DNA of 64,000 nt from Pseudarthrobacter equi (GTDB lineage: Bacteria; Actinomycetota; Actinomycetes; Actinomycetales; Micrococcaceae), in NCBI RefSeq assembly GCF_900105535.1, contig NZ_LT629779.1, forward strand, positions 4,395,079-4,459,078. Direction: 5' to 3'. The notes below the pieces were generated by a model. That model was not told the DNA's origin, did no database searches, and worked only from the letters and a program-made list of their open reading frames with translations. A program made the position numbers and the translations under genes. Of the stretch, positions 47,343 to 64,000 are shown in pieces (position 1 is the first letter of the stretch; every line of letters starts with the position of its first letter).

Positions 47343-47965
47343 TGTCCGCCTCCTTCCGGGCTGGGCTTGACGTTGGGTGAGCCGGGTTTTTCTTCCTGGG
47401 CCGCGTTCTCGGTGGGTATTTCGCGGTCGCCCGCCACCACGGTGGCGGTACCGCCGTGCACCCGGGCGCCGGCCTCACGTCCGCCGGACGTGTCATCGCC
47501 TGACCCCGTTCGGTGGTCTGAGATGTCCTGCCCGTCGCCGCCCAGCATGGTGAGCGGGAATTCGGACGTTTCGGCGGGGATCTCGGCGTCGTCCTCGGCG
47601 TCGAAGCTGGGGGTTTCGGCGACGCGGAGGTCTTCCACGTCATCCTGGATTTCGTCCTCGCGCGCCAGCACCCAGGTCCGGTAGATGATGCCGAGCATGA
47701 AGGCGGTCACCGCGAACGAGATCACGATGGACGTCAGGATCAGCGCCTGCGGCAGCGGATCGTTGTAGTCCCCCGCAGCGGTTTCCTTGGAGAACAGCGG
47801 GGCCAGGCCGGAGTAGCCGCCGGTGGCCAGGATCAGCAGGTTGGTGGCATTGGCCAGGAGCATGAGCCCCAGCAGGACGCGGGTGAGGCTGCGTTCCAGG
47901 ATCAGGTAGATGCCGCAGGCATACAGGGCACCCATGACCAGGAGCAGGGCGAGGTTGATGCTCAT
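47339..47965 (-). CDS. mrpC: Na+/H+ antiporter subunit C with long C-terminal extension
   Basis: 208 residues. Three membrane helices and LLGLMLLANATNLLILATGG place it in the MnhC/NuoK-like family, whose usual length is about 110-130. The extra C-terminal part (about 120-208) is acidic and disordered, rich in Asp, Glu and Gly. It overlaps mrpA and mrpD by four bases. The tail may be a regulatory or docking element. Confidence 0.92.
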   Translation of the reverse strand: MSINLALLLVMGALYACGIYLILERSLTRVLLGLMLLANATNLLILATGGYSGLAPLFSKETAAGDYNDPLPQALILTSIVISFAVTAFMLGIIYRTWVLAREDEIQDDVEDLRVAETPSFDAEDDAEIPAETSEFPLTMLGGDGQDISDHRTGSGDDTSGGREAGARVHGGTATVVAGDREIPTENAAQEEKPGSPNVKPSPEGGGQ

Positions 47966-50900
47966 GCCTTGCCTCCTGAGATGGTTTCGGCTGGCATGTC
48001 TTCGGGTTCCTCGTACTCTGCGGGTTCGGAGCCCCGCTCCTCGATGTGTTCATCCACTTCAGCGCCGAGGCTGCGCAGCACGTCCAGCACCAGGCCCACC
48101 ACCACGATGTACACGCCGATGTCGAAAATGGTCGACGTGACGAACTTGATGTCCCCGAAGACGGGCAGCCAGAACTGGATGATGGCGCTCTGGAACACCT
48201 GGCCGCCCAGGAACAGCGGGGCAACACCGGAGCCCGCCGCCGTGGCCAGGCCGATGCCCAGCAGGCCACCGGCGCTGACGGGAGTGGCCTCGCTGAGTTC
48301 GAACCGCCCGCCGGCCAGGTAGCGGATGGTCAGGGCCAGGCCGGCCGTCAGGCCGCCGGCGAAGCCGCCGCCGGGCAGGTTGTGGCCGGCGAACAGAAGG
48401 TAGAGCGAGAAGATCACCAGCGAGTGGAAGACCAACCGGGTGACCACTTCGAAGATGATGGAGCGGCGTTCCGGGGCCAGCGTCCGGCCGGCCACCAGCC
48501 AGGCGTCCCGGGTGGCCGTGGCGAACTTCCTGCTGATGGCCAGGGCGGCGCCATCCCGGGAACCCGGGTCCACGCCATGGAAGCGGCCCACGGTTCCTTC
48601 CGCCACCGAGGCTGAGGCCCGCAGGCGGTCACCGCGGCCGCGGACGAAGATGAGGCTCGCAACACCCGTGGCGGCGAGTGCCAGCACCGTGATTTCACCG
48701 AAGGTGTCCCAGGCCCTGATGTCCACCAGCGTGACGTTGACGATGTTCAGTCCGCCGCCGCCCTCGTAGGTCAGTTGCGGGAACTGCAGCGAGATGGGCT
48801 GGGCCACGCGGGCGCCCATGGCGTAGATGGCCGCGAACACCATGGTGGCTCCGAAGGCTGCGCCGATGATGACACGGACCACACGGTATTTGCCGCCGGT
48901 ACGGTCCCGCAGTTCGGGAGGGAGGCGGCGCATGCCGAGGACGAAGGCCACCAGGATGATGGTTTCCACCAGCATCTGCGTCAGTGCCAGGTCGGGGGCC
49001 CCCTGGAGGGCGAACATCAGGGCGATGCCGTAGCCGGTAACCGACACCATAAGGACGGCGAGGAAGCGCTTGTTCGCCTTGACTGCCGCGAGGGCGCCGA
49101 TCACGATGCCGATTCCCGCGACGATCTGCAGCGGAGAGCCCGGATCCACCAGGTAGATATTGTCCGGAAGCGGCTTGCCGGCGAAGAGGATCGCGGTCAG
49201 GGGCAGGGCAAACGCCACTGTGAGGATGACGGCGAGGTAGAAGTAGAGCGAACCGCGCTGGGTCCGGCCGGTGATCCATACGGCGATGTCGTCCAGCGCA
49301 CCGATGGTCAGCTGGTAGCCGCGGTCGGCATCCACCCAGTCCGGCACCAGCGCCTGCGCCCGGGCCACGGCGTTGCGGCCGAAGTACATCGCAGCGCCGA
49401 GGACAAAGGTGAGCGTCGTCAGGCCAAGTGCGGGGGTGAGCCCGTGCCACAGCGCGAGGTGCCCGGCCTGCTCGGCCGGTGTTCCGGCGTCGGGCGCTGT
49501 GGACGCGAACAGCGCGGCGTACGGCTGGATCCAGGTGTCAACCGGTGCCGGCCACAGGCCGTAGGCGATGGTCAGGACGCTCAGGATGGCCGGTGCTGCG
49601 ATGAAGGAAGGCCGGACGGCCTTGAACTGGGTGGGCTCCACGCCGGGTTTGACGGCGAAGGCACCCCACATGAAGCGCGCGCTGTACGCGAAGGTGAGGA
49701 CTGAACCCACGACCAGCCCCACCAGGACCACCATGCCCCACGGTCCGGCGTCAGGGTCCCCGGCGTGGTGGACGAACGCTTCCAGCACGGATTCCTTGGC
49801 CACGAACCCGGCAAGGAAGGGAATGCCGGCCATGGACGCGGCACCGATACCGGCCACGATCCCCAGGGCGCGGGAGGACCTGAAGACGCCCGAAAGCTTC
49901 CGGACATCGCGCGTTCCGGACTGGTGGTCGATGATGCCGACCACCAGGAAGAGCGTCGCCTTGAAGAGGCCGTGGGCGAGCAGCATTGCCAGGCCGGCCA
50001 GCGCGGCGTCCGGCGTGCCGAGGCCCACCACCATGGTGAGGAAGCCCAGCTGGCTCACGGTGCCGTAGGCGAGGATGAGTTTGATGTCGGTCTGGCGCAG
50101 CGCACGGTAGCCGCCCACCAGCATGGTGGCCAGGCCCAGGCCCAGCACCACGGGTTGCCAGTAGGCCGTCTCCGCGAATCCGGGCGCCAGCCGTGCCACC
50201 AGGTAGATGCCGGCCTTCACCATGGCGGCGGCGTGCAGGTACGCGCTGACCGGGGTGGGGGCGGCCATGGCGCCGGGAAGCCAGAAGTGGAAGGGAACCA
50301 GCGCGGATTTGGTGATGGCGCCCACCAGGATGAGCACGACGGCGGCGCTCACCACGGCGCCGGACGGGCCCTCCGCGAGCACGTGGGCCTGTTCGAGGAT
50401 GGCAGAGATGCGGTAGGTTCCGGCCGTCTGGCCCAGCATGATGACTCCCACCAGCATGGCCAGGCCACCGGCGGTGGTGACCATCAGGGCCTGCAGCGCC
50501 GAGCGCCGGGCCGCCAGCCTTGTCCGGGCAAAGCCGATCAGCAGGTAGGACAGGATGGTGGTGAGTTCCCAGAAAATGAAGAGCAGCAGCAGGTCATCGG
50601 CCACCACCAGGCCGAACATGGCGCCCGCGAAGGCCAGGAGTTGCGCGCCGAACGCGCCGAGGTCCTGGTCTTTCCGTTTGAAGTACCGGGCGCAGTAAAG
50701 CAGCACCAGGGCACCAACACCCAGCACCAGCAGTGACATCACCCAGGCCAGCGGGTCCATGCGGAAGGCGAACTCGAGGTGGAGGCCGGGAATCCAGGGG
50801 ATGACCTCGGCCACCGCACCCTGTTGCGAATAGACGGGGCCGTACTGGAACAGGAGCCAGACGAACGAGGCAGCGGGTACGGCTGCCAAAGCGTAGAATG

Positions 50901-50976
50901 CGTTGCGGCCCCACTTCCTGAAGAACAACGGCGCCAGCACAGCCACCGAAAAGTGCACGGCAAGGACTGTGATCAC
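47962..50976 (-). CDS. mrpA: Na+/H+ antiporter subunit A (fused A/B)
   Basis: 1004 residues from the GTG at 50976 behind CGGAGA; 44 further codons upstream have no supported start. The N-terminal part (1-600) is an ND5-like channel with FIFWELTTILSYLLIGF, ALVPFHFWLPGAMAAPTPV and ILAYGTVSQLGFL. The C-terminal part contains the MnhB domain (FHSLVIFSLYLLFAGHNLPGGGFAGG), so no separate mrpB exists. The complex exchanges cytosolic Na+ for external protons and supports pH and salt tolerance. It heads mrpACDEFG. Confidence 0.95.
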   Translation of the reverse strand: MITVLAVHFSVAVLAPLFFRKWGRNAFYALAAVPAASFVWLLFQYGPVYSQQGAVAEVIPWIPGLHLEFAFRMDPLAWVMSLLVLGVGALVLLYCARYFKRKDQDLGAFGAQLLAFAGAMFGLVVADDLLLLFIFWELTTILSYLLIGFARTRLAARRSALQALMVTTAGGLAMLVGVIMLGQTAGTYRISAILEQAHVLAEGPSGAVVSAAVVLILVGAITKSALVPFHFWLPGAMAAPTPVSAYLHAAAMVKAGIYLVARLAPGFAETAYWQPVVLGLGLATMLVGGYRALRQTDIKLILAYGTVSQLGFLTMVVGLGTPDAALAGLAMLLAHGLFKATLFLVVGIIDHQSGTRDVRKLSGVFRSSRALGIVAGIGAASMAGIPFLAGFVAKESVLEAFVHHAGDPDAGPWGMVVLVGLVVGSVLTFAYSARFMWGAFAVKPGVEPTQFKAVRPSFIAAPAILSVLTIAYGLWPAPVDTWIQPYAALFASTAPDAGTPAEQAGHLALWHGLTPALGLTTLTFVLGAAMYFGRNAVARAQALVPDWVDADRGYQLTIGALDDIAVWITGRTQRGSLYFYLAVILTVAFALPLTAILFAGKPLPDNIYLVDPGSPLQIVAGIGIVIGALAAVKANKRFLAVLMVSVTGYGIALMFALQGAPDLALTQMLVETIILVAFVLGMRRLPPELRDRTGGKYRVVRVIIGAAFGATMVFAAIYAMGARVAQPISLQFPQLTYEGGGGLNIVNVTLVDIRAWDTFGEITVLALAATGVASLIFVRGRGDRLRASASVAEGTVGRFHGVDPGSRDGAALAISRKFATATRDAWLVAGRTLAPERRSIIFEVVTRLVFHSLVIFSLYLLFAGHNLPGGGFAGGLTAGLALTIRYLAGGRFELSEATPVSAGGLLGIGLATAAGSGVAPLFLGGQVFQSAIIQFWLPVFGDIKFVTSTIFDIGVYIVVVGLVLDVLRSLGAEVDEHIEERGSEPAEYEEPEDMPAETISGGKA

Positions 50977-51168
50977 TGGTATCTCCGCAACGTCAGGAAT
51001 TCGATTGTCAAAAGTTGGAGCAGGCGGCAAAATGTCGGGTTCGGGAATCCACAGTTTATCAAGCCCGGGCGCCTGACCCGTCGCGGTTTCCCGGCCGCCG
51101 CGCGTCATTCCGCGCCAGTCAGGGCTTCGGTCCGCATCCTGTTCGCCCTCGGCGGATACGATGCAGCT

Positions 51169-52572
51169 ATGAACAGCGCCAGCGCTCCCCGGGCCATGCA
51201 GCCGTCCTCGGAACTAGCATCCGGCAACCAGGTCTCCAGTAAGGGCCGGATCCTGGCCTGGGCGTCCTGGGACTGGGGTTCGGCGGCCTTCAACGCTGTG
51301 ATGACCACCTTCGTGTTCACCGTCTACCTGACGTCCAACGCTTTCGGCGGCAAGGACGAAGCCTCGGCTGTCCTCGGCGGCGCCCTCGCCGTGGCGGGCC
51401 TCGCCATCGCGCTGCTGGCCCCCGTGACCGGGCAGCGCTCCGACGCCGGCGGCCGGCGGAAGCTGTGGCTGGGAGTCAACACGGCCGCCGTCGCCGTCCT
51501 CACCGCGCTGTGCTTCTTCGTCTTCCCGCAGCCGGAATTCCTGCTGCTGGGCGTCACCCTGATCGCCCTGGGCAACGTGTTCTTCGAATTCGCCGGGGTC
51601 AACTACAACGCCATGCTGGCCCAGATTTCCACCCCCCGGAACATCGGAAAGGTCAGCGGCATCGGCTGGGGCGCCGGGTACCTGGGCGGCATCGTGGCAC
51701 TGCTGATCGTGCTGCAGCTGTTCGTCCAGCCCAGCTTCGACTGGTTCGGCGCGTCCACCCAGGACAGCCTGAACATCCGGCTGGTGGCCGTGTTCTCGGC
51801 CCTGTGGTTCTTCATTTTTGCCCTGCCGGTCCTGTTCGCCGTCCCGGAACTGCCCCGGGCCGGCCAGGCAGCCCGCCTCGGCATCGTGGCCAGCTACCGG
51901 CTGCTCTTCCGCCGGATCCGCGCCATCTATGCCACCAGCCCGCACACCATCTACTTCCTGCTGGCCAGCGCCGTGTTCCGTGACGGGCTGGCCGCAGTGT
52001 TCACCTTCGGCGGCATCATCGCCGCGGGCACCTTCGGGTTCGAGCTGTCACAGGTCATCTTCTTCGCCATCTTCGGCAATGTGGTGGCGGCAGTCGGAGC
52101 CATCCTCGGCGGATTCCTGGACGACAGGGTGGGCCCGAAGGCCGTCATCATCGGCTCACTCGCGGGCCTGCTGGTGGCAGGCACCGTGATCCTGGTACTG
52201 GGTAATGGCGACTATTCCTTCTTCGGCATGGAGTGGGCCGGAAGCACCACGTTCTGGGTGTTCGGCCTGTTCCTCTGCCTGTTCGTGGGCCCGGCGCAGT
52301 CGTCATCGCGCGCGTACCTCGCCCGGCTCGCACCGCACGGGGAGTCCGGCGAACTGTTCGGTCTCTACGCCACCACCGGCCGGGCCGTGAGCTTCCTGGC
52401 ACCGGCCCTCTTCACGCTGTGCATCACGGTGGCAACCCCTCTGGTAGCCGCCGGAGAGGCTCAGCGCTGGGGCATCCTGGGCATCATGGTGGTCCTGCTC
52501 GCCGGGCTGCTGGTCCTGCTGCCGGTGAAGTCGCCGGACAAGGCTCCCATCGCCGTCGTCCCCTCCGCCTGA
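51169..52572 (+). CDS. MFS transporter, UMF1/Atg22-like
   Basis: 467 residues with about twelve membrane segments. The start region RILAWASWDWGSAAFNAV and the loop TGQRSDAGGRRK are typical of the UMF1 (Atg22-like) group of the major facilitator family. GPAQSSSRAYLARLAP is the second conserved loop. Bacterial substrates are unknown; amino acids or peptides are guesses. TACGAT lies six bases before the ATG, so the message is probably leaderless. It is divergent from mrp. Confidence 0.87.
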   Translation: MNSASAPRAMQPSSELASGNQVSSKGRILAWASWDWGSAAFNAVMTTFVFTVYLTSNAFGGKDEASAVLGGALAVAGLAIALLAPVTGQRSDAGGRRKLWLGVNTAAVAVLTALCFFVFPQPEFLLLGVTLIALGNVFFEFAGVNYNAMLAQISTPRNIGKVSGIGWGAGYLGGIVALLIVLQLFVQPSFDWFGASTQDSLNIRLVAVFSALWFFIFALPVLFAVPELPRAGQAARLGIVASYRLLFRRIRAIYATSPHTIYFLLASAVFRDGLAAVFTFGGIIAAGTFGFELSQVIFFAIFGNVVAAVGAILGGFLDDRVGPKAVIIGSLAGLLVAGTVILVLGNGDYSFFGMEWAGSTTFWVFGLFLCLFVGPAQSSSRAYLARLAPHGESGELFGLYATTGRAVSFLAPALFTLCITVATPLVAAGEAQRWGILGIMVVLLAGLLVLLPVKSPDKAPIAVVPSA

Positions 52573-52611
52573 CCCCACCCACGCAACGCTCCGGAAGACT
52601 AGGCTTTAACC

Positions 52612-53094
52612 ATGAACGTGGACGAAACGAATCTTCCCGGCCTCGGCCGCCGGAAGGACTTCATGACAGCTTCCGGACGCCGGATCGGCGTGGTGGAGCT
52701 GAGGGAAGGCCAGACCGAGCTCATCGTCTCCACGTGGGACGATCCCGATACCTGCCAGGCTTCCATTCCGCTGACCAGCGATGAAGCCGCCACCCTGGGC
52801 AACCTGCTGGGCGGCCAGCACCTCGCCATGAAGCTGACGGAGGAGCACAAGGACGTCCCGGGCATCGTCACCCGGCAGTTCTCCATCGCCCCGGAGTCCC
52901 CGTTCCAGAACCAGCCCATGGGCAAGGCGTGCATCCGTACCCGGTGCGGCGTCTCCATCGTGGCCATCATGCGCGAAGGCGAGGTCCTGCCCTCGCCCGG
53001 ACCCGACGTGATCCTGCATACCGGTGACCTGCTGGTTGCTGTCGGAACCCTGAAAGGCCTCGATTCGGCGGCCGACATCCTGCGCCACGGCTGA
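52612..53094 (+). CDS. Cation/proton antiporter regulatory subunit (KhtT-like)
   Basis: 160 residues. The N-terminal half binds the channel partner in KhtT proteins; the C-terminal half (about 80-160) is a TrkA-C domain with IREGEVLPSPGP-like ligand loop and LHTGDLLVAVGTLKGLD. These domains sense nucleotides or pH. TAGGCT lies six bases before the ATG, indicating a leaderless start. It precedes the antiporter gene by five bases. Confidence 0.87.
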   Translation: MNVDETNLPGLGRRKDFMTASGRRIGVVELREGQTELIVSTWDDPDTCQASIPLTSDEAATLGNLLGGQHLAMKLTEEHKDVPGIVTRQFSIAPESPFQNQPMGKACIRTRCGVSIVAIMREGEVLPSPGPDVILHTGDLLVAVGTLKGLDSAADILRHG

Positions 53095-53099
53095 CCCCT

Positions 53100-54281
53100 A
53101 TGGACCCGCTGGCCCTGACCCTCATCGAACTGGGGGCCGTTGTGTTCTGCCTTGGCCTGTTGGCCAGGCTGGCCGGACGGATAGGAATGTCACCCATCCC
53201 GCTCTACCTGCTGGGCGGGCTCGCTTTCGGCGCCGGTGGCGTGGTGAAGCTCGAAGGCATGCACGAGTTCGCACACCTTTCCGGCGAGATCGGCGTCATT
53301 CTGCTCCTGCTCATGCTCGGACTGGAATATACGGCGGCGGAGCTGTTCACCGGCCTGCGGCGGTCGTGGCAGGCCGGCGTGCTGGACCTCGTGCTCAACT
53401 TCCTTCCGGGAGCGGCACTGGCCCTGCTCCTCGGCTGGGGCGGTGTGGGGGCCATGGTGATGGGCGGCGTCACCTACATTTCCTCGTCCGGAATCGCCGC
53501 AAAGGTCATCACGGACCTGGGCCGGCTGGGCAACCGTGAAACACCGGTGGTGCTGTCCATCCTGGTGTTCGAAGACCTGGCCATGGCCGTCTACCTGCCC
53601 ATCCTTACTGCCACCCTCGCGGGCGTCAGTTTCCTGGGCGGGCTGACTACCGTGGCCATTGCGTTGGCCGTGGTCACTGCGGTGCTCATGGTGGCGCTGC
53701 GGCACGGCCACCATGTGTCCAAGGCCGTGCACAGCGAAAACTCGGAGGTGTTCCTGCTCAACGTGCTGGGCGCTGCGCTGCTGGTGGCCGGCCTGGCTTC
53801 TGCCATGCAGGTCTCCGCAGCGGTGGGCGCCTTCATGCTCGGCATCGCCATCTCCGGCGCCACCGCCCACAACGCCACCCGCATCCTCGAACCGCTGCGG
53901 GACCTGTTCGCCGCCATCTTCTTCGTAGCCTTCGGGCTGAACACCGACCCCACATCCATTCCGCCGGTACTGGGCTGGGCCCTGGTGCTGGCGGTGCTCA
54001 CTGCCGGAACCAAGATGGCTACCGGAATCTGGGCAGCCAAACGCGAAGGGATTGCCAGGCCAGGACGCTTCCGTGCCGGTGCAACACTCATCGCCCGCGG
54101 CGAGTTCTCGATCGTGATCGCCGGGCTGGCCGTCGCCTCAGGCGCCGTACCGCCCAACCTCGCCGCCCTGGCCACCGCCTACGTCCTGCTGATGGCTGTC
54201 ATCGGCCCGCTGGCCGCGCGCTTCGTGGAACCCCTGGTCAAGGCATCGACGCGGAGGCGGCAGGTCCCGGCGCAGGCGTAG
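53100..54281 (+). CDS. CPA2-family K+(Na+)/H+ antiporter (KhtU-like)
   Basis: 393 residues with about twelve membrane helices. LLLLMLGLEYTAAELF, SSSGIAAKVITDLGRLG and LVFEDLAMAVYLP, plus AAVGAFMLGIAISG, are CPA2/Kef-type transport motifs with the expected acidic residues. No C-terminal RCK domain is attached; the regulatory subunit is the separate upstream gene. Together they would export K+ in exchange for H+ and complement the nearby Mrp system. Confidence 0.9.
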   Translation: MDPLALTLIELGAVVFCLGLLARLAGRIGMSPIPLYLLGGLAFGAGGVVKLEGMHEFAHLSGEIGVILLLLMLGLEYTAAELFTGLRRSWQAGVLDLVLNFLPGAALALLLGWGGVGAMVMGGVTYISSSGIAAKVITDLGRLGNRETPVVLSILVFEDLAMAVYLPILTATLAGVSFLGGLTTVAIALAVVTAVLMVALRHGHHVSKAVHSENSEVFLLNVLGAALLVAGLASAMQVSAAVGAFMLGIAISGATAHNATRILEPLRDLFAAIFFVAFGLNTDPTSIPPVLGWALVLAVLTAGTKMATGIWAAKREGIARPGRFRAGATLIARGEFSIVIAGLAVASGAVPPNLAALATAYVLLMAVIGPLAARFVEPLVKASTRRRQVPAQA

Positions 54282-54309
54282 GCGAAATCGGTACGGAGTG
54301 CCGGTTGCG

Positions 54310-54885
54310 CTAGATGCGGGTGCGGTGGAAGTTCAGGTGGCTCCGGCTGGCGGTCGGGCCGCGCTGGCCCTGGTAACGGTTGCCGTACTCACCCTGGCCG
54401 TAGGGGTACTCCGCCGCGGAGCTTAGGCGGAAGAAGCAGAGCTGGCCGATCTTCATACCGGGCCACAGCTTGATGGGCAGCGTGGCCATGTTGGACAGTT
54501 CCAGCGTGACGTGGCCTGAAAAGCCGGGGTCAATGAAGCCTGCGGTGGAGTGCGTCAGGAGCCCCAAGCGGCCCAGCGAGGACTTGCCTTCCAGCCGGGC
54601 GGCGATGTCATCCGGGAGGGTGACGGTCTCGTAGGTGGAGCCCAGGACGAACTCGCCCGGGTGCAGGATGAAGGCCTCGTCCTGCTCAACCTCCACCAGC
54701 CGCGTCAGCTCCGGCTGCTCCTGCGCAGGATCGATGTGGGCGTACTTGTGGTTGTCGAAAAGCCTGAAGAACTTATCGATCCGGACGTCCACCGACGACG
54801 GCTGCACCATCGCGGGCTCGAACGGTTCCAGCACGATCCGCTGGGAGTCTATTTCGGCACGAATATCGCGGTCTGAGATCAGCAC
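54310..54885 (-). CDS. dcd: dCTP deaminase
   Basis: 191 residues. [31 protein letters not shown] and [15 protein letters not shown] are the trimer and active-site motifs, including the Glu acting in deamination. The actinobacterial form is often bifunctional, producing dUMP directly from dCTP; the sequence fits but does not prove this. The start is GTG, six bases after TAATTT on the minus strand, again without a leader. Confidence 0.95.
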
Positions 54886-55018
54886 CGTCCCAAATTACCG
54901 TATGGGATATCCACAGCCACATTCTTTCGTTGTTGCTGTTGTCCAGTGGGGCTAATGTTGCCTCAGATACACAGGCGCCGGATGGTCTCCCGGATGGCCC
55001 AACAGAGCTGGGGATGTT

Positions 55019-56806
55019 GTGAATAAATTAGTCGCGCCCTCTTTTATTGGCGTGCTCTGCGCGCTGGTGCTCGCCTCCTCGACGGCGGGGCCAGCCCCGC
55101 TGCCATTGGATGCCGGCCAGCACGTGGCGGCCTCAGGACCGTCACGCGTGTCGCTGGGGGAGGCCACCGGGAACGGCGGCGGCTCCAGCACGGTGAACAG
55201 CACCACCGGCACCGCCCTCACCCCGGCTGTTGATCCGGACATCCGGGTGGCCTCGCCCACCGCGCCGCTGGACGTGGCACCGCCTACAGCTCCTGCGGCC
55301 GCCGCGGTGGGACCGGCGCTGGACATCAGGCCGGTCCAGGAACCGTCCCCCGCGCCATCAGCCGATCCCACCGGCGCTTCGGGTCCCGCCACTGCGCTGC
55401 CCGCTGCCGGGGTCCCGTCCATACCCCCGCTGTGGGCACCTGACGCCGATCTGGCCTCCCCGCCGCCGGCAACATCCGGGCCCACTACTTCCGGGCCGGC
55501 AACGTCCGAATCACTGGCAGCGCCCCCGGCCACGGAGGCACTGGTCAAGGACAACAACTCCGCAGCGATCCTCACCGTCTTCACCAAGATCAACGAGTAC
55601 CGGGCGTCCAAGGGCTTGAATCCGGTGAAATACAACCCCACTGTGGCCGGCCTCTCCCAGGAGTGGTCGGACAGCATTGCCTCCCGCGAGGTCATTGAGC
55701 ACCGCGCCAACTTCTGGACAGATCCGCGCGCCATGAACCCCAACAACGGCGCAGGCGAGGTCATCGCCATCCGGACAGACAGGGATGCCGCCCAGCTGGT
55801 GGAGTGGTGGAAGGGCTCCCCGGGGCACAACGCCATGCTCATTGACCCCCGGTTCAACGTCATGGGTGCAGGCATCTCGTACACCAACTCCACCTACCAG
55901 ATCTGGGGTGTGGTGAACTTCTTCGGCTACACCACACTCCCGGCCGGCACCGTGGACTCACCCGGCGGGTCCGGCGGGTCCTCAGGGGGAGGCTCCGCTT
56001 TCCCAGCACCGGCACCCACCTTGTGCGATGCCACGGGGCGGCACATGCCTCCCACGCTGGACCTGCGTGCCGCGGCCATCACGGGGCCCGGCGACCTTGT
56101 GTCCGTCAATTCTTCGGGCCAGCTGCTTAACAGGGCCTCAACAGGTGTCCGCACGTACGGCGCCGCCAAGGTCATCGGTTCAGGCTTCACCGGGGCGAAG
56201 GAAGTCTTCGTCACCGATTGGGACCGGGACGGCGCCTACGATCTCGTGACCCAGTGGACCAACGGGGACCTCACCCTGCACCGCGGCATCGCCACCGGAG
56301 GGTTCCAGGCAGCAATCACCCTGGGGTCCGGCGGCTGGCAGTCCCTCACCCTTGCGGTGGGCGGCTGGTGCGCCAACAACAGGATGCCGCAGATCCTGGC
56401 CCTGGACAGCAGCGGGAACCTATTCCTGTACCCCAACAAGGGCACCACAGACCTCTCGGCAAGGGCATTGATCACAAGCGGCGTTAACGCGTCCCGCCTC
56501 GCGATGGTGGACTACGACGCAGACGGCTTCCAGGATGTCCTCGCCCTCCGCGCTGATGGCGCGGTACAGCTCTACCGGGGCTGGGGAACCACCACCCTCC
56601 GTGCCGAGGCGCGGCCTACGGTGGCCACCGGCTGGCAGGATGTCACAGGCATCAGGGCACTGAAGAACGTCACCGGCCTGAACTCCACCGGTATCGCGCT
56701 CCGCAGGGCTTCCGATGTTGTGCAGTACTGGGACCTCTCGGGCGGAAGCCTGGCGTCGCCGTCGAACATTGCAGGGCCCTGGACCGGCCAGCGGCTGGCG
56801 CAGTAA
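55019..56806 (+). CDS. Secreted CAP-domain protein with FG-GAP/VCBS-like repeats
   Basis: 595 residues. A signal peptide (1-25, short, ending STA-GPA) is followed by a Pro/Ala/Ser-rich stretch to about 170. The CAP/SCP domain (about 178-310) has EWSDSIASREVIEHRANF and WWKGSPGHNAMLIDP. After a Gly/Ser linker come blade-like repeats (about 345-595) with VTDWDRDGAYDLVTQW and VDYDADGFQDVLALR, which hold calcium-binding DxDxDG loops. It probably acts on or near the cell surface; enzymatic activity is not predicted. The start is GTG behind GGGGATG. Confidence 0.85.
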   Translation: MNKLVAPSFIGVLCALVLASSTAGPAPLPLDAGQHVAASGPSRVSLGEATGNGGGSSTVNSTTGTALTPAVDPDIRVASPTAPLDVAPPTAPAAAAVGPALDIRPVQEPSPAPSADPTGASGPATALPAAGVPSIPPLWAPDADLASPPPATSGPTTSGPATSESLAAPPATEALVKDNNSAAILTVFTKINEYRASKGLNPVKYNPTVAGLSQEWSDSIASREVIEHRANFWTDPRAMNPNNGAGEVIAIRTDRDAAQLVEWWKGSPGHNAMLIDPRFNVMGAGISYTNSTYQIWGVVNFFGYTTLPAGTVDSPGGSGGSSGGGSAFPAPAPTLCDATGRHMPPTLDLRAAAITGPGDLVSVNSSGQLLNRASTGVRTYGAAKVIGSGFTGAKEVFVTDWDRDGAYDLVTQWTNGDLTLHRGIATGGFQAAITLGSGGWQSLTLAVGGWCANNRMPQILALDSSGNLFLYPNKGTTDLSARALITSGVNASRLAMVDYDADGFQDVLALRADGAVQLYRGWGTTTLRAEARPTVATGWQDVTGIRALKNVTGLNSTGIALRRASDVVQYWDLSGGSLASPSNIAGPWTGQRLAQ

Positions 56807-56891
56807 GCACCAAACCGTAAGTACCAGGGCAGAAGGCGGAGAACCCTCACTGGGCCGGCGGCGGAAGCTGGTGGGCCGGGACGTCGCCTGG

Positions 56892-57353
56892 CTAGCTGAC
56901 GGTCTGCAGCTCCAGTACGTCCTTGAGCCGGTCCAGCTGGGATACCTCGGCGCGGACCCGTCGCTGGGCGATCTTATTCAGGAGGCCGAACCGGTCAAGG
57001 AAGGAGAACGAGCCTTCCGGCCGGGCTTCGAGCGCGTAGCGGAGCCGGGTGCCGTCGTTCTCGGTGCTGAGGTAGTAGCCGCCCGAACGGTTCGACGGGC
57101 CGGAGGTCACCCGGAACTGGATTTCGGCGCCGGGCCTGGCCTGGGTGATTTCCAGCTCGGCCGGAATGCTGAGCCCGGACCGCCCCGCCACCATCTTGCG
57201 GTACACGGCGCCTTTGGTGCCGGCAGAGCCCTGCACCAGCTTCACGCTCCGGACAGCTTCGCGCCACGTGGGCAAGTTGGTGGCGTCCAGCAGGTACAGG
57301 TACACGGCCATGGCGTCACGCCGGATGAGGACCTCGTGTTCTGCGGATGCCAT
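56892..57353 (-). CDS. SRPBCC-fold protein
   Basis: 153 residues. DATNLPTWREAVRSVKLVQG and GTKGAVYRKMV then ITQARPGAEIQFRVTSGP fit the START/Bet v1-like SRPBCC fold (polyketide cyclase/dehydrase type). Such proteins bind hydrophobic ligands. It has no operon partner. It is the last gene with typical host codon use before the low-GC region. Confidence 0.8.
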   Translation of the reverse strand: MASAEHEVLIRRDAMAVYLYLLDATNLPTWREAVRSVKLVQGSAGTKGAVYRKMVAGRSGLSIPAELEITQARPGAEIQFRVTSGPSNRSGGYYLSTENDGTRLRYALEARPEGSFSFLDRFGLLNKIAQRRVRAEVSQLDRLKDVLELQTVS

Positions 57354-57639
57354 GGGGATCTTTCTGTGGTTGACGCCGGCATGCTGCCCGGACCGCCTCC
57401 CCCTGGCGCCACAGCATTCCGGTTCAGGTTAGCCAGCCCGCCGGGTGCCAACCTAGCCAGATGCGGCGACGTTATTGAAGAGTTACTGGATGACGTGCCG
57501 GACCTGGGACACGGCTGGAACTGCCGGCACCGTGGCCGGACCGCCGTTCCATCTGCGCTAAGCTAAGTTCTGCCCCGCAGATGCGGCGGCAACGCGGCTG
57601 GGACTGGTCAATAATCCCCACAGACGCTAGAAGACGCAG
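57354..57639. other. Intergenic region at the left edge of the low-GC island
   Basis: No gene, tRNA or clear terminator was found here. Base composition changes from typical host DNA to a less GC-rich sequence within this stretch. Confidence 0.5.
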
Positions 57640-57690
57640 TAGGCAAAATGCCCCAGAAACGCGTAATGCCCGTTTTGGGAACGCACTGCC
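57640..57690. repeat. Repeated AATGCCC element near the island edge
   Basis: AATGCCC occurs at 57647-57653 and again at 57665-57671, exactly 18 bp apart, followed by GTTTTGGGAACGCACTGCC. The flanking CAGAAACGCG between them joins the copies into one unit. It lies directly before the first island gene. It could be an attachment-site remnant, a regulatory repeat or part of a dispersed repeat; sequence alone does not decide. Confidence 0.45.
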
Positions 57691-57737
57691 AGACTCACAC
57701 AGAAAATCATGTCGGTGTTAGGCGCTATCTTTGAAAC

Positions 57738-58118
57738 ATGGCTAAGAAACCGAACCCCGAGGTATGCGATATATACGTCGCTGACCCCACGGAGATCAAC
57801 GTTCGGGACGATCACAAAGAGAAGATCACCCGTCGATACGGAATTGCGGAAGCTTCAAAGAAGTCCTTTACCGTGCAAGCTATTGGACGCACCACGGACG
57901 AACCACGGGCTGACGAGAAGATTGATCCCGTTCATTCCCCAAGAAATGATGACATTGGGTTGACTAAGGAAGGGTGGTGGATCGTTCGGTACCGCTGCAC
58001 GATCGGAAAGGCACTCTTCAAAGAGGATGTTCTGGACCACAGAGGTGAGCTTCTCGCTCCAGAGTCGGACGCATTCAATGACCTTTGGCACAAGAACTCT
58101 GTTCTCGGCTACTACTGA
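57738..58118 (+). CDS. Hypothetical island protein 1
   Basis: 126 residues, soluble, with mixed charge and no membrane segment. It begins MAKKPNPEVCDIYVADPTEI and contains TKEGWWIVRYRCTIGKALF, which looks like a beta-rich core. No family is recognised. TATCTT lies six bases before the ATG, so translation is probably leaderless. GC content is clearly lower than in the flanking host genes. It is the first gene of a three-gene group that ends with the metalloprotease. Confidence 0.75.
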   Translation: MAKKPNPEVCDIYVADPTEINVRDDHKEKITRRYGIAEASKKSFTVQAIGRTTDEPRADEKIDPVHSPRNDDIGLTKEGWWIVRYRCTIGKALFKEDVLDHRGELLAPESDAFNDLWHKNSVLGYY

Positions 58119-58160
58119 TACACTGATCTACTGCCCACTTCACAGATCGGCACGCCTGCA

Positions 58161-59051
58161 TTGAAACTCCTTGATCGCAGCCAGCTTCCCAGCGAGGCTG
58201 TCCGAATTATCGACGGCGGCACCCCCGCCGCACCAAAAGCTGGTGACGTGTGGGTGCTGGCAGATGAGATTCAAGACCTTGCTCTAGGTCTAATTACGCG
58301 TGTCCATGATTCCTTCGTGTCTATCCTTCCGATCACCTGCGATGCCGCCGAAGCTAGAGAGCCTGCTTCCATCGTTCGCGCCGCACAGTCGCCCATAAAT
58401 GCAGACATTGCAGTCTGGTCGCCTGCACCGACAGGGATCGGCATGCACCTTCTGGACCGTCGTATCGGGAACCTCTGCTCTGAAAGCGCAGCACTGAGAC
58501 TGGAACGATCAGCTTTCGACGACGACGTGGACAGCCCTTTTGAAATGGGCGCTGAAATGGAATCCGATGACACGACCCCATTCATCGACTTTTTGTTGAG
58601 CAGCTTTCGCAAGTTTTGCTTTGATTCGTGGCCGTCTGCCACGGCTGGAGAGGCGGTATTCAAGACAGAAGCTCTCATGGAAGCTGAAATGACCGCCAAG
58701 AAGATTCGTGAAAATTTGAACATTCCTGAACGCGGGGACGCTGCCGACCTCTTTCGCGGCGATGCGTTGCCGACTTCTGCACAGATATCCGTAATGCGCG
58801 AGATCACTGGTCTCACTGATTCCCAACTCCTTCGTCCGGTCAGCTCTGAAGTAGTAACCGAGTTGATGCAACCAACCCAGCGGGACAAAATCGTAAGCTT
58901 GGCAGAGCGCAGGGCGTTGAAGCAGCGTGATGCAAGAAACTTACTCATGCAGAATGCATTGATCGCAGCTCGCAGTTCCAAAGCTGGCGATGAACGACAA
59001 GCGGCGCAAAACCGCATCGACGAAGCGTATTCGCGTCTGATGCAGGAGTAG
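58161..59051 (+). CDS. Hypothetical island protein 2, partner of the metalloprotease
   Basis: 296 residues from a TTG; the next gene starts six bases after its stop. The N-terminal part (about 25-60, AGDVWVLADEIQDLALGLIT) looks like a small SH3-like beta barrel. The C-terminal part has short helices with LPTSAQISVMREITGLTDSQL, which could be a degenerate HTH, and a charged helical tail. ImmA/IrrE proteases often work on an HTH repressor encoded beside them, so this protein is a candidate target. No family is recognised with confidence. Confidence 0.72.
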   Translation: MKLLDRSQLPSEAVRIIDGGTPAAPKAGDVWVLADEIQDLALGLITRVHDSFVSILPITCDAAEAREPASIVRAAQSPINADIAVWSPAPTGIGMHLLDRRIGNLCSESAALRLERSAFDDDVDSPFEMGAEMESDDTTPFIDFLLSSFRKFCFDSWPSATAGEAVFKTEALMEAEMTAKKIRENLNIPERGDAADLFRGDALPTSAQISVMREITGLTDSQLLRPVSSEVVTELMQPTQRDKIVSLAERRALKQRDARNLLMQNALIAARSSKAGDERQAAQNRIDEAYSRLMQE

Positions 59052-59057
59052 CTGGCA

Positions 59058-60101
59058 ATGCTTACAACTCTTACTGATTACCGACTTTGGGCACTGCCCC
59101 GCAACTACGTGAAAATTGCCGACGCCATGATCCAAGAAATACTGGATTCCGGTGCGGTTTTTGAAGACATTGCGGACGCCCCTGTGGAGTATGTTGAATC
59201 GCGTGGCGACCTTGACGTTATCTTCCATGAGCTGCGGGGAACCAAGGGATGCAATGTTCAGGCGTGCTATGACCCCTACATCGATCCTCCGGCAATCTTC
59301 GTCCACCTAAGCGGAAACACCGGGCGCGACAACTTCAGCGTGTTGCATGAACTTGCCCACCATCAACAACGAGTTGGCGACGCTTGGTCCGATATCACTG
59401 AAGACATCACCGATCGAGCCTTCATAAAGGAACTTCGCGAGAAGGTCGCCAACAGTTTCGCGTCCAGACTTCTACTTCATGAGGATTTGATCGAGTCCGC
59501 GTTCGGTTCAGGACCTGTAACCGCCGCTGGGGTGAGATGGTTGTTCGATAACTCGGCAGCATCCATGCAGGCATGTCTCTATCGATCCCTTGAACTTGAA
59601 GGCAATAGGGTTGTCATGCAGACAGACTCTGACGGCAGGCTTTTCTTCAGCGCGGCAAATAGCGATGAACTATTCCCACCCCACAAGGATAAAACTCAGG
59701 AAGAGATTGCTCGCTCCTTCGAGCGTCTACAGGCTAGCGAGGACGGAAGCTTAGTTGTTCGTGGCGGGTACGGTATCCAGCACCTCAGCGGAAAGAGCTA
59801 CACCAACGTTGTACTCGACATGGTTCTGTGCGACGGGTGCGTTCTCGTGATTGCCACCAAGGGACGCAGCGAGTACTTCGCCTTCAGTGACGACGGCGAG
59901 TACTACCAAGGCTCCGTCTGCCATGACAGCTTCCTGATTAAGGACTCTCCCGGTAGGTGTTCTACCTGTAACGAGCCGAAATGCTCGAAGTGTAAAGCCT
60001 GTGGATGCCCTGACAAGCAGCCTCCGCCATGCACCCGATGCTTCATGCTTTTGTCCGTTAATGACGTGCGTGCAGGGCGGACCGCACACGAAGATTGTTG
60101 A
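59058..60101 (+). CDS. ImmA/IrrE-like metallopeptidase with C-terminal cysteine cluster
   Basis: 347 residues. SVLHELAHHQQ carries the HExxH zinc site (His 97, Glu 98, His 101), and a Glu downstream (about 114-126) can act as the third ligand, as in COG2856 ImmA/IrrE proteases. Such enzymes cleave repressors after a signal (phage ImmR, DdrO). Residues about 215-290 form a beta-rich middle part. Residues 301-328 hold eight cysteines in CxxC-type spacing (CSTCNEPKCSKCKACGC, CTRC), probably binding zinc or sensing redox state. That cluster is unusual for the family. Confidence 0.82.
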   Translation: MLTTLTDYRLWALPRNYVKIADAMIQEILDSGAVFEDIADAPVEYVESRGDLDVIFHELRGTKGCNVQACYDPYIDPPAIFVHLSGNTGRDNFSVLHELAHHQQRVGDAWSDITEDITDRAFIKELREKVANSFASRLLLHEDLIESAFGSGPVTAAGVRWLFDNSAASMQACLYRSLELEGNRVVMQTDSDGRLFFSAANSDELFPPHKDKTQEEIARSFERLQASEDGSLVVRGGYGIQHLSGKSYTNVVLDMVLCDGCVLVIATKGRSEYFAFSDDGEYYQGSVCHDSFLIKDSPGRCSTCNEPKCSKCKACGCPDKQPPPCTRCFMLLSVNDVRAGRTAHEDC

Positions 60102-60186
60102 GGCAACGAAAATTGCCGCTGATACCGTGGTTCCCCAGCCAGACAATCGACAGAGACGCCATTGGTATTAAGACCACGGGAAACGC

Positions 60187-60732
60187 TTAGTAAAGCGCCG
60201 TATCCCATTTCAAAGCGCCCGCTGCGTGCCGTACCCCTCCTTCGCTCATGCTGCTGCCGCTGAAGTAGGACGTATTCCACTGCGGGACTTCTTCAGTTTC
60301 GGAAAACTCGCGATACCAGAGAGACAAGAACGTTCCCACGTTAGTGGCAGGAATGTTCAGCACGATTCTGCTGCCTCTACGGAAGATCGCCACGGGCGCA
60401 CCTGCCGGGTTTTGAAACTCCACGGTGGAACCGCCGCAGTGAGGCGTAGCCTCCGCCATGACTACAACTGCCGGATCATAATGGTTACGCTCCAACAGCC
60501 AATAGTTCCCTTCCAGCTTCGTGAGGGACCAAGGCTCTTCACGCCCTACCTGTTTCCAGTCCTTGATCGCTACATCTAGAGCTTCAGTTGAGATTGCGTG
60601 GCTTGCCTCCGCTACCTTTTTGCTCTCTACTGCAACCTGTTTGCTTTCCTTCGAAACCTTGTAGGTGAGCCATGCGACGACGATCGTAAGAAGCGCGATT
60701 ACCGCCGTAGCGATCGTTATGACTTCAGTCAT
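60187..60732 (-). CDS. Membrane-anchored protein of unknown function
   Basis: 181 residues. One N-terminal membrane helix (about 5-24) is followed by a Lys/Glu-rich coiled helix (25-60, KVSKESKQVAVESKKVAEAS), then a folded beta-rich domain. I recognise no family. It follows the nuclease-like gene by 34 bases on the same strand and may be the last gene of the hsdR group. Codon use is island-like. Confidence 0.7.
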   Translation of the reverse strand: MTEVITIATAVIALLTIVVAWLTYKVSKESKQVAVESKKVAEASHAISTEALDVAIKDWKQVGREEPWSLTKLEGNYWLLERNHYDPAVVVMAEATPHCGGSTVEFQNPAGAPVAIFRRGSRIVLNIPATNVGTFLSLWYREFSETEEVPQWNTSYFSGSSMSEGGVRHAAGALKWDTALY

Positions 60733-60766
60733 ACACTGGTCCTGTTCTCATGTCATTGGATTCAAA

Positions 60767-61718
60767 CTATTTGATCGGAGATGAGAGGTCGAGATGACCC
60801 AATTGAGCGCCAGCAGGGAAATCTTCTGACGACGTTACCGTTAGCACTTCTGGGCACTTTTCCACTCGCGCGGCGATTTCTTCCCCTAGAGCAAAAAATC
60901 GTTCGTCTAGAAAAGAATCCAGATGTTTCGCCTGAACAACATCGATCCGCAATTGCAAATCCATCTTGTCCGTCTTGATGTGTCGCGTCACGTTCGACCA
61001 CGGCTTGCTGTGGGCTTCCAGTACATCAGCCTCTGTATCCACCTCGAATATGTCGTTTGAGGTAACGAGTATCGGAAGCGTCAAGCGGTTGAGCGAAAAG
61101 TTGGTATCTGGATTGAAGACGCCACGGGCTACCGTTCTTTTCGAGACGCTTTGCACTGCTTTAGCCATGGGCATGACGATTCCGTTGAACATATGGTCGT
61201 TATCAGCTATCCATTCCTTCTTTCGCTCCATGACTACGAGTTGATTGCCAATAAAGCTATCAGCGCTCGGACTGCCGGGAGCGGAAGCGAGGTCTAAAAC
61301 GCTCCAGACCGAGCGGCGGGTGGAGCCTCTACTCGCCGTGCTTGGAGGAACTGGCGGAATAGGTATGGAAATACCCTCGTGCGCATAAAACTTTGCACCG
61401 AAAGGGACCCGCGCCTTTTCGGTGTCCTTTGCAGCCCTTCCGACTATCACGTACGGCGACTTCGGATTCTTGCACTCAATCAGTAATTGGATGCCGAAAA
61501 CGATGCGTCGGCTCTCATGTGTATAGAACTGCTTATAACCCCACACATCGATCTCACGGGATTTTACCTTCGTCGGGGTCCTCATACGCACGAGACACCT
61601 CACACTGAATGTCGCGCTTCTCTAGCACCTTTCGAACGTCTTGTTCAAGGATGAAACCAGTCTGACGAAGGGCAGCGATTACGTCTTCTGATGATGGTCC
61701 GGAGTTGAGTTGGTTCAT
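60767..61718 (-). pseudogene. PD-(D/E)XK nuclease-like gene broken by a one-base insertion
   Basis: From the ATG at 61718 the frame reads MNQLNSGPSSEDVIAALRQ and continues to EDPDEGKIP, then stops. Dropping one base of the AAAA run (TTTT at 61562-61565 on the plus strand) joins it to SREIDVWGYKQF and a full downstream frame to 60767. The restored protein is about 316 residues. REIDVWG and, after about 20 residues, LLIECKN give the Asp and Glu-x-Lys of a PD-(D/E)XK nuclease core near the N-terminus. Its start overlaps the hsdR stop (ATGA). It is either a base-calling error or a real inactivation. Confidence 0.8.
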
Positions 61719-64000
61719 GCCGCTTCCTCATCCCGAAGCTTCTCGAAAAGCCCCATCTTCTTGAGCAACTCCACCATCTCGCCCACCTTGTCGGAGGACA
61801 GGACCCAGCCAATACCCTTGGCGTGCTGCTCCCCTGCCTCGATGACAGAATCCTCGACGGTAGTCAGAATCTTGGGTGACGAGTAGAAGTCCACCTTGCC
61901 GTTCGCCTGCGCCTGACCCCGCAGCGTTCGGTTCTCCAGTGCCTTGTTCAGCACGCTCTCTGCCACGGAGAGCTGGTCGGCATCGGTCAGTCCAGAACCC
62001 TCAAAGAAGGTGTTCATCTGGTCAATGATCTCCGCCCACTTTGCCTTCTTGACTTCGTGGGCTGAACCGGTTCCAGCAGCCGTCAGCGGGTCGAGAGGTA
62101 TGGACTCATCACCTGACAGCTTCAGGTCAGCCTTTTCCTGCTTCTTGAGCTTGTAGTGAGTCATCACTACCTCGGACAGGTCAACTGTCGTTCTGTCCTG
62201 ATTCTCCGAGCTGATTACACGCGCGAGCAGCTTGTAGAAAATCGACCGCTTCTCCAGATCGGTGTCTTGATAGTCGATGATTTGCGACAGGAAGTCGTAA
62301 GCGCGGATGAAGCTGCCAAGGTCCTTACGGAACAGGTCCAGCGCGTCCTGTGCAGTCTTGTCGCCGTCTTCCCGCGCCTTCTGGTAGCGAACCCGGAACC
62401 GTGACTGCGCAGGCGCTACAAAGCCCTTCAGCTTCTCATGAGTGGTCTTCCCAACCCACGCGGCAGCCGTCGCCTCGACCTCGCTGATCTCGTAGATACC
62501 AGCGCTATCCAGCTTCGCTTGGAGGTCATGCACGATGTCCGGATCAGTGACCGCAGAAAGTTCGGCTTCCTTGTGGTACTGCTGGAACGCGGCAAGGATT
62601 TCCGCCGGGTCATTCACAAAGTCGACGATGAACGTTTGGTCCTTGCCGGGAGTCACTCGGTTCAAGCGTGAGAGGGTCTGCACGGCAGTGATGCCAGACA
62701 GTTTCTTGTCCACGTACATCGCAACAAGCAACGGCTGATCAAAGCCAGTCTGGAACTTATTGGCAACCAGCATGATCTGGTACTCATCGGTGTTGAATGC
62801 CTTCGGAAGCTCACGCCCCTTGAGACCGGGGTTCATCGTGTGCTCATTTAGCTTGCCGATGCCGGATTCGTCGTCGATTATGTCGCCCGAGAATGCGACG
62901 AGCGTTGCCAAGTCCTTGTAGCCCTTGTCGGCAATGTACTTATCGATAGCCACCTTGTAGCGGACAGCTTCCTTCCGGGAGCCAGTAACAACCATGGACT
63001 TCGCACGCCCTGCGAGGTGGTGACGCACATTGGAGCGAAAATGCTCCACGACGACGGCAAACTTTTTGACTGATGTTATATGGGTGAAGTTTCACCCAGC
63101 GCATCAATTCCTTGACGGCTTCAGACTTCTCGATCGTCGTCTCGTCAGAGTCGTAGTCCACGCCGTTGTGCGCGAGCTTGAACGCCATCTTGTAAGGCGT
63201 GTAGTTCTTCAGCACATCGAGGATGAAGCCTTCCTCAATTGCCTGCTGCATCGAGTACAGGTGGAAGGGCGCGGGTAGTCCGGCTTCGTTGGGACGCCCG
63301 AACAGCTCCAGCGTCTTAGCCTTCGGCGTTGCGGTGAATGCGAAGAACGACAGGTTCTTGCTTTCCGCGCGCTTGTTCATTTCTTCTGCGAGCACGTCTT
63401 CTGTGGAAAGCTCAGCTTCCGGATCGACTTCAGCGTCGACGGCGGCTTCATTGCCGGAGGTCAGAACCTTCTTCAGGTTCTTCGCTGCGTCACCGGACTG
63501 TGAGCTATGCGCCTCGTCCGCGATGATGGCGTACGACTTGCCTTCAGTCCCTTGTTTTTTGGCGATCTCATCAAGAGCGAAGGGGAAGGTCTGGAGCGTC
63601 ACACCAATAATTTGGGTGCCACCAAGAAGTGCCTTGGAAAGTGCCTTCGACTTTGCGCCGCAGTGGAGGTAATGGCTTCAAATACCCATCCACCTTGTTG
63701 AGCTGCTTGACAGCATCCTGCAACTGCCCATCCAGTACCTTGCGGTCACTGATCACGATCACGGCATCGAACATCTTCTTGCCATCGGCATCGTGCAGGA
63801 GTTGAGCCGGTGAGCAGTCCATGCGATGGAGTTTGTTTTGCCAGAACCAGCAGAGTGCTGGATCAAGTACCGGTGTCCCGGTCCTTCGGCGGCAGCAGTT
63901 TCCGCCAGCTTGTTTACCGCTTCCCACTGGTGGTAGCGCGGAACAGCAATGATTCGTTCTTGGTCTTCTCGCCCGTGATCGGGTCCGTCTTCTCCTCAAC
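61715..64000 (-). pseudogene. hsdR: Type I restriction enzyme R subunit, frameshifted, partial
   Basis: The 3' two-thirds of HsdR; the start lies right of the window. Across several frames the product has QHSAGSGKTNSIAWTAH (Walker A), IIADEAHSSQSG (DEAH box), FFAFTATPKAKT (motif III), ANKFQTGFDQPLLVAMYVDK (motif V region) and a long helical C-terminus. HsdR translocates DNA and cuts it in complex with HsdM and HsdS, which are not in view. Apparent one-base errors occur near 63940, 63800, 63686, 63660 and 63060, each repaired by adding or dropping one base, mostly in a short run. The last 440 codons are intact. Confidence 0.88.

Follow-up and report, generated by a model that had tools for sequence, protein, structure and literature searches.

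A protease–HTH operon with a predicted MazF-fold protein in Pseudarthrobacter equi: a possible three-component toxin-antitoxin-like alarm

Introduction

In the CapH-CapP pair, single-stranded DNA (ssDNA) activates CapP, which then cleaves CapH (PMC13373217, PMC10904395), and the pair regulates adjacent operons (PMC13373217); vapKSC is presented as a CapKS-like toxin-antitoxin (TA) system in which a regulator pair has been turned into a toxin lock (EMBO J 2026, PMC13373217). Earlier, Makarova et al. (2009; PMC2701414) proposed three-component COG2856-XRE TA operons in which the protease would cut the XRE repressor or antitoxin. Here we describe a related operon of three genes, which we call A, B and C, in a 64,000-nt stretch of Pseudarthrobacter equi DNA (the window) that reaches to the end of its contig. 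Structure modelling predicts a MazF fold for A; B is a helix-turn-helix (HTH) protein and C is an M78 (ImmA/IrrE) metalloprotease.

The A-B-C operon resembles CapH-CapP in that C matches both the capP model and the CapP structure 7t5t, B, upstream of C, has an XRE-type HTH, and kindred B-C pairs precede cyclases of cyclic-oligonucleotide-based antiphage signalling systems (CBASS). It differs in the extra gene A with its predicted MazF fold, in a putative C-terminal cysteine finger on C, in the absence of CBASS genes among the scanned part of its neighbours, and in the long N-terminal part of B before the HTH, CapH being small. With vapKSC, A-B-C shares the three-gene layout and a defence-operon regulator pair apparently reused for toxin control, but it combines a protease with an HTH protein rather than a kinase with STAS, and a MazF fold rather than PIN/VapC; B falls into no family of Pfam, PADLOC or NCBIfam and C belongs to M78, so the pair is not one of GHKL kinase and STAS proteins. 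The partners named for the COG2856-XRE operons are RelE and PIN (PMC2701414) and not a MazF-fold protein without a family model, and A-B-C carries the protease and the HTH on separate genes. Finally, the M78 domain of C (3dte) and the DdrO-type HTH of B (6rnz, E 0.021) recall IrrE/PprI-DdrO of Deinococcus, but in place of a regulon of repair genes A-B-C has a toxin-like gene within a single local operon, and the accessory domains differ. Among the titles and abstracts listed in a literature search, which left out most subscription papers, none describes an A-B-C operon.

The removal of antitoxins is usually credited to unspecific housekeeping proteases, and TA systems have long been suspected of being phage sensors. 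In A-B-C a dedicated protease, from a family with known DNA-damage sensors, sits in one operon with a MazF-fold family outside the Pfam models. If the interpretation developed below is correct, a MazF-type toxin would have a directly testable trigger, and a single protease-HTH module would be seen to serve three kinds of output, namely CBASS, multiubiquitin and toxin.

A conserved three-gene operon

A, B and C lie on the forward strand, separated by 42 nt (A-B) and 6 nt (B-C). Their order is kept in seven genomes, and a comparison of the window with Pseudarthrobacter sp. C4D7 (locus L007) shows nonsynonymous divergence (dN) well below synonymous divergence (dS) for each gene (dN/dS of roughly 0.12, 0.16 and 0.21 in A, B and C, respectively), so the arrangement is more than chance: A-B-C is a real, conserved, unannotated module. 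An earlier reading made from the letters of the window, the sequence-only reading, had proposed a linked three-gene system ending in an ImmA/IrrE protease with a 296-residue partner as its possible substrate. Its coordinates, the HExxH motif at residues 97–101, the eight cysteines at 301–328, the restriction neighbour and the low G+C content all proved correct (past some 58 kb G+C drops from about 0.66 to 0.53–0.56; around A-B-C it is 0.53–0.61, versus about 0.66 for the genome). The linkage it suggested was borne out as well, and what it overlooked was the predicted fold of A. The dS of A (0.39) is far above that of B (0.05) and C (0.07), so the history of A may differ even from that of B-C. 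The synonymous divergence of A (57738–58118 versus L007:6681–7061), some 6–7 times that of B and C, hints at an exchange of A alone.

C is an M78 protease with an HTH partner

C scores 25.1 bits with Pfam Peptidase_M78 (PF06114), above the gathering threshold of 22, which agrees with the family proposed earlier, and matches the PADLOC capP model with E 2e-14. Its profile finds IrrE (3dte, E 2.3e-13) and CapP (7t5t, E 2e-6) in the PDB. In a 13-row alignment of C, in which the window and near-copies account for four rows, H97, E98 and H101 are invariant; position 128, which we take from IrrE to be the acidic third metal ligand, is E in eight rows and D in five. By analogy, C would cleave an HTH repressor.

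The profile of B, built from 15 proteins, has as its best matches five antitoxin chains, four of them named HigA (E 0.0014–0.0059), followed by other XRE proteins including DdrO, mostly over a single stretch equivalent to about residues 177–224 of the window protein. The profile matches to the N-terminal half include nothing convincing. All 15 proteins have P57, W86, P238 and A269-A270-R271. When two B proteins were scanned against PHROGs, that of G429 matched a phage repressor family (E 2.2e-6) and that of the window matched none. In higBA the toxin gene comes first; B follows A, its HTH matches HigA, and its role as an antitoxin is putative. With this HTH, and with cousin pairs that precede CBASS cyclases, B remains a plausible substrate of C, as the sequence-only reading had it.

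A has a predicted MazF fold

The structure model of A (predicted local distance difference test 79.3, predicted template-modelling score 0.70) matches MazF in Foldseek and VIA, which places it in the MazF/CcdB fold. Entries of the MazF, CcdB and Kid types fill the matches listed for the model; RelE is not among these, which excludes nothing. Conserved residues of A are R32, R51, T/S53 and R84, with R32 present in 44 of the 45 rows that have a letter there and T or S at position 53 in 47/47. From a weak profile alignment, we presume that R32 and T53 correspond to the catalytic Arg and Thr of MazF. A is a candidate toxin of predicted MazF fold, which would probably act as an RNase. The alignment of A does not include P0052.

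A and the N-terminal domain of B look alike by eye, but their profile-profile score of 13.7 was reached in 18 of 200 column shuffles and in one of nine windows of C, and we therefore claim no kinship between them.

Distribution of A-B-C

A database of 5.8 billion proteins yielded two matches to C and three to B, one of the latter being the window's own. Profiles of C match in 3/150 genomes of the genus (E 1e-5), 7/245 of the family and 10/296 of the class (both E 1e-10), and in 16 distinct genomes altogether; B adjoins C in 11 of the 16, and in the other five (G163, G356, G668, G423, G624) no B is recognisable by profile. Searches with A found six genomes, all with A-B-C in order, including G683 and G921, which the searches with C had missed. 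In a seventh, G526, a scan of the locus revealed an A-like frame just before B (E 2.7e-7) that the whole-genome searches with A had not reported; missing matches are thus no proof of absence. In total, B-C pairs occur in 13 genomes, seven with A (G000, G103, G399, G429, G526, G683, G921) and six without it. The sequence-only reading had held that wide occurrence of the protease without the two upstream genes would defeat the idea of a system, and this objection partly applies: the three genes co-occur in the seven A-B-C genomes, but the protease is also present without A in the six other B-C genomes and, in more distant form, without a recognisable B in five of 16. The search with B found 6/246 genomes, all at loci that were already rows of its profile, and thus revealed no case of B without C.

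Loci used to build a profile match it by construction; the independent matches are L042 and L030 for A, L024, L025 and L042 for B, and L058 for all three genes. With the window and C4D7 (L007; G103:C33) counted once, there are six distinct A-B-C loci. Those of G429 and G921 are closely related, with 73% identity in C, but differ in their neighbours. After C, G526 has a DUF1883-TIR gene; G683 has a NACHT gene near A-B-C and also a HEPN match that falls below threshold; two neighbours scanned in G921 gave one weak PADLOC match (PDC-M58A, E 1.2e-4). The neighbour scans covered all of these loci except that of G399. On viral contigs, 177 stretches fitted the pattern of the C profile and none was confirmed; B was not found in plasmids, nor C in phages.

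B-C pairs without A

The six A-less B-C genomes (G083, G318, G320, G327, G383, G418) carry a gene of 331–408 amino acids (aa) before B. A CBASS cyclase directly follows C in G083, G327, G320, G318 and G418 (PADLOC E 1.7e-140 to 2.6e-175), that is, after five of the six kindred pairs, and G383 has a multiubiquitin gene after C and an E1-type gene two genes on; control of a neighbouring immune operon by A-B-C itself is putative. The loci of this group are L008, L023, L024, L025, L029 and L028. The 331–408-aa gene has no convincing match in Pfam (five of six scanned) or the PDB, and its candidacy as a sigma factor was rejected on the same scans, in which no Pfam sigma domain and no convincing PDB entry appeared.

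Four distant relatives of C (L027, L033, L026, L034) lie near shorter genes that match sigma-70 domains. At L027 and L033 a gene of about 226 aa stands between the distant C relative and the sigma-70-like gene, which suggests that a distant C-type protease may cut an anti-sigma factor and so switch on immunity genes. The distant C relative of G356 precedes an E1-type gene.

In trees built from 15 rows of C and 14 of B, a single branch with 100/100 support separates the A-linked rows from the others. Four database proteins carry an A-linked label: that of P0001 rests on an A relative, P0006, from a contig of equal length, and those of P0002, P0004 and P0005, for which no A was seen, are assumed. 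The six A-less B-C genomes fall outside the A-linked group; the five C genomes without B were left out of the trees. Our reading is that protease and HTH protein together form a chassis on which different immune outputs are mounted and that A marks one branch of it.

A proposed alarm mechanism and its alternatives

We propose that A-B-C is a three-component TA-like alarm in which A is the toxin, B the lock and repressor and C the key, and we put the chance that this is right at about even. B would repress the operon and/or keep A inactive, while C, a protease of the IrrE/CapP type, would stay idle until a stress signal arrives, most likely ssDNA from DNA damaged by phage infection or restriction. 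Activated C would then cut B, which would free A and derepress the operon, and growth would stop, possibly as a defence against phage. From the precedents of CapH-CapP and IrrE-DdrO, C should cut B upon DNA damage, and it is the predicted MazF fold of A that shifts the likely output towards a toxin.

Several results weigh against this proposal, whose weakest link is the putative toxicity of A. A is predicted to share the fold of MazF/PemK, but none of 47 A proteins matches PF02452 or any other Pfam family at E 0.1, for which reason we term A a MazF-fold protein and not a member of PF02452, and in place of MazE it is accompanied by an HTH protein and a protease. Sequence-profile searches of the PDB with A returned neither MazF nor anything else relevant. 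A profile-profile comparison with PemK/MazF, for which 7/12 PemK loci were used after a motif filter had dropped five, aligned in register but with P 0.038, which is not significant alone. A search upstream of A found no operator palindrome or inverted repeat. In the tree of C, long branches meet at the split, which midpoint rooting alone orients.

A bolder version of the proposed alarm, which we consider speculative and rather unlikely as a whole, is a restriction-coupled suicide switch: cutting of incoming phage DNA by the neighbouring restriction system (type I; type IIG at two other loci) or phage damage would yield ssDNA, C would destroy B, whose N-terminus may be a pseudo-MazF that pairs with A and silences it, and a toxin family of MazF fold that has gone unrecognised would be freed. 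At related loci the same chassis would serve CBASS and ubiquitin-like immunity, another gene having replaced A.

The leading alternative, possible but in our view unlikely, is a pure transcription switch, in which C cuts B and thereby lifts repression of the operon and of defence genes nearby, here the type I restriction locus, and A is a non-toxic MazF-fold helper such as an RNA- or protein-binding regulator. The lack of a toxin-family sequence signature in A would fit this, as would the fact that each of the six other B-C pairs immediately precedes a CBASS cyclase (five) or a multiubiquitin gene (one), much as CapH-CapP stands to its adjacent operons (PMC13373217); but this other B-C group has no A and a different gene in its place. 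Three of the six distinct loci also have restriction genes within 2 kb of A-B-C: the window and C4D7, counted once, have type I genes, and G526 and G429 have type IIG genes. This too speaks for such a switch, but as a count uncorrected for the background rate near random genes it is suggestive only. Moreover, the restriction genes of the window are convergent with C on the opposite strand and hence not downstream of the A-B-C promoter.

The inserted element

A-B-C is the opening operon of a 14.4-kb element that spans window position 57600 to G000:C1:29622. The four relatives examined lack the element, and in them the flanking sequences meet at the 5′ end of a tRNA-Gly(CCC) gene. Its termini are inverted repeats (GGGACTG...), and the right end carries GGACAGTCCC, inverted, directly before tRNA-Gly(CCC). 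Besides A-B-C it contains frames of 182 aa (unassigned) and 317 aa, the type I restriction genes, three in number, a further two small frames and, near the right end, an integrase-like and a transposase-like gene, both named by eye. C4D7 has an element at the same site with the same ends; the two are 94% identical in A-B-C, 79–81% in the restriction block and 66% in the recombinase block, and the first and last of these values imply that parts of the element differ in history.

The position of A-B-C at the head of such an element, with an integrase-like gene near the far end, would suit a mobile-element immunity switch like ImmR-ImmA, in which C cuts B and the island is excised or transferred upon DNA damage. 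We find this improbable: the integrase-like gene lies about 9 kb from C, past the restriction genes; the operon and the recombinase block have had different histories; and no tRNA gene was found in the 17–19 kb around the five other A-B-C loci, L058 included.

The cysteine-rich tail of C

The tail of C has cysteines at 301, 304, 309, 312, 315, 317, 325 and 328, and also C347. All of the first eight are kept in 13/13 rows except Cys 312 (10/13). The conservation of these residues, their CxxC pairs and weak alignments to FYVE double zinc fingers (E 0.02–0.85) and rubrerythrin (E 0.04–0.13) favour structural zinc sites over a free thiol sensor. The idea of a cluster that gates the protease in response to metal or redox state, raised by the sequence-only reading, could draw on the conserved tail and on C65, ahead of the catalytic motif and kept in 13/13 rows, but we consider it very improbable in view of the signs of structural zinc, of the presence of the same cluster in CBASS-linked relatives of C and of the ssDNA response reported for CapP (PMC13373217).

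Feature coordinates and neighbouring sequence

Coordinates are collected in Table 1. If the candidate −10 element is used, we infer that the A transcript would be leaderless.

Table 1 Features of the A-B-C locus in window coordinates.
Feature	Position	Strand	Details	Interpretation
Left-hand 9-nt direct repeat flanking the element	57591..57599	.	AACGCGGCT	
Left end of the element	57600..57618	.	GGGACTGGTCAATAATCCC; identical left end in C4D7	
Candidate −10 element TATCTT	57726..57731	+	6 nt ahead of the ATG of A; kept in C4D7	
Gene A	57738..58118	+	126 aa, ATG start	MazF-fold toxin-like protein, predicted
Gene B	58161..59051	+	296 aa, TTG start	HTH protein, proposed to act as antitoxin/repressor and to be cut by C
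HTH region of B	58689..58832	+	about residues 177–224, profile matches	
Gene C	59058..60101	+	347 aa, ATG start	M78 (ImmA/IrrE) metalloprotease, Cys-rich tail
HExxH motif of C	59346..59360	+	H97-E98-L-A-H101, residues 97–101	zinc-binding motif
Cys cluster of C	59958..60041	+	residues 301–328	probable zinc finger

Beyond C lies the type I restriction locus, of which the window holds an R fragment; M and S were identified in the C4D7 copy. Between C and hsdR stands a further gene (window 60767–61603, L007:9191–10129; 312 aa in C4D7), whose C4D7 copy has no match in Pfam or PADLOC scans and which by eye resembles a restriction-endonuclease fold. Near B-C, L008:10332–12375 and L031:5385–7596, from two different genomes, contain a second set of genes, by eye a small M78-like protease, a membrane protein and an HTH gene.

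The last 17 kb or so of the window duplicate the start of the contig with many small gaps: window 46962–64000 aligns to G000:C1:4587–21604 with 82 gap openings, and contig positions 1–4575 are a reverse copy of window 47025–51597. This terminal duplication is probably an unresolved circular assembly overlap with insertions and deletions, and the frame breaks in hsdR after about 61.7 kb are thus probably assembly errors; hsdR, broken in the window, is open in the second copy (L003+L004 19316–22420). The segment 57738–60101, which holds A-B-C, is identical in both contig copies.
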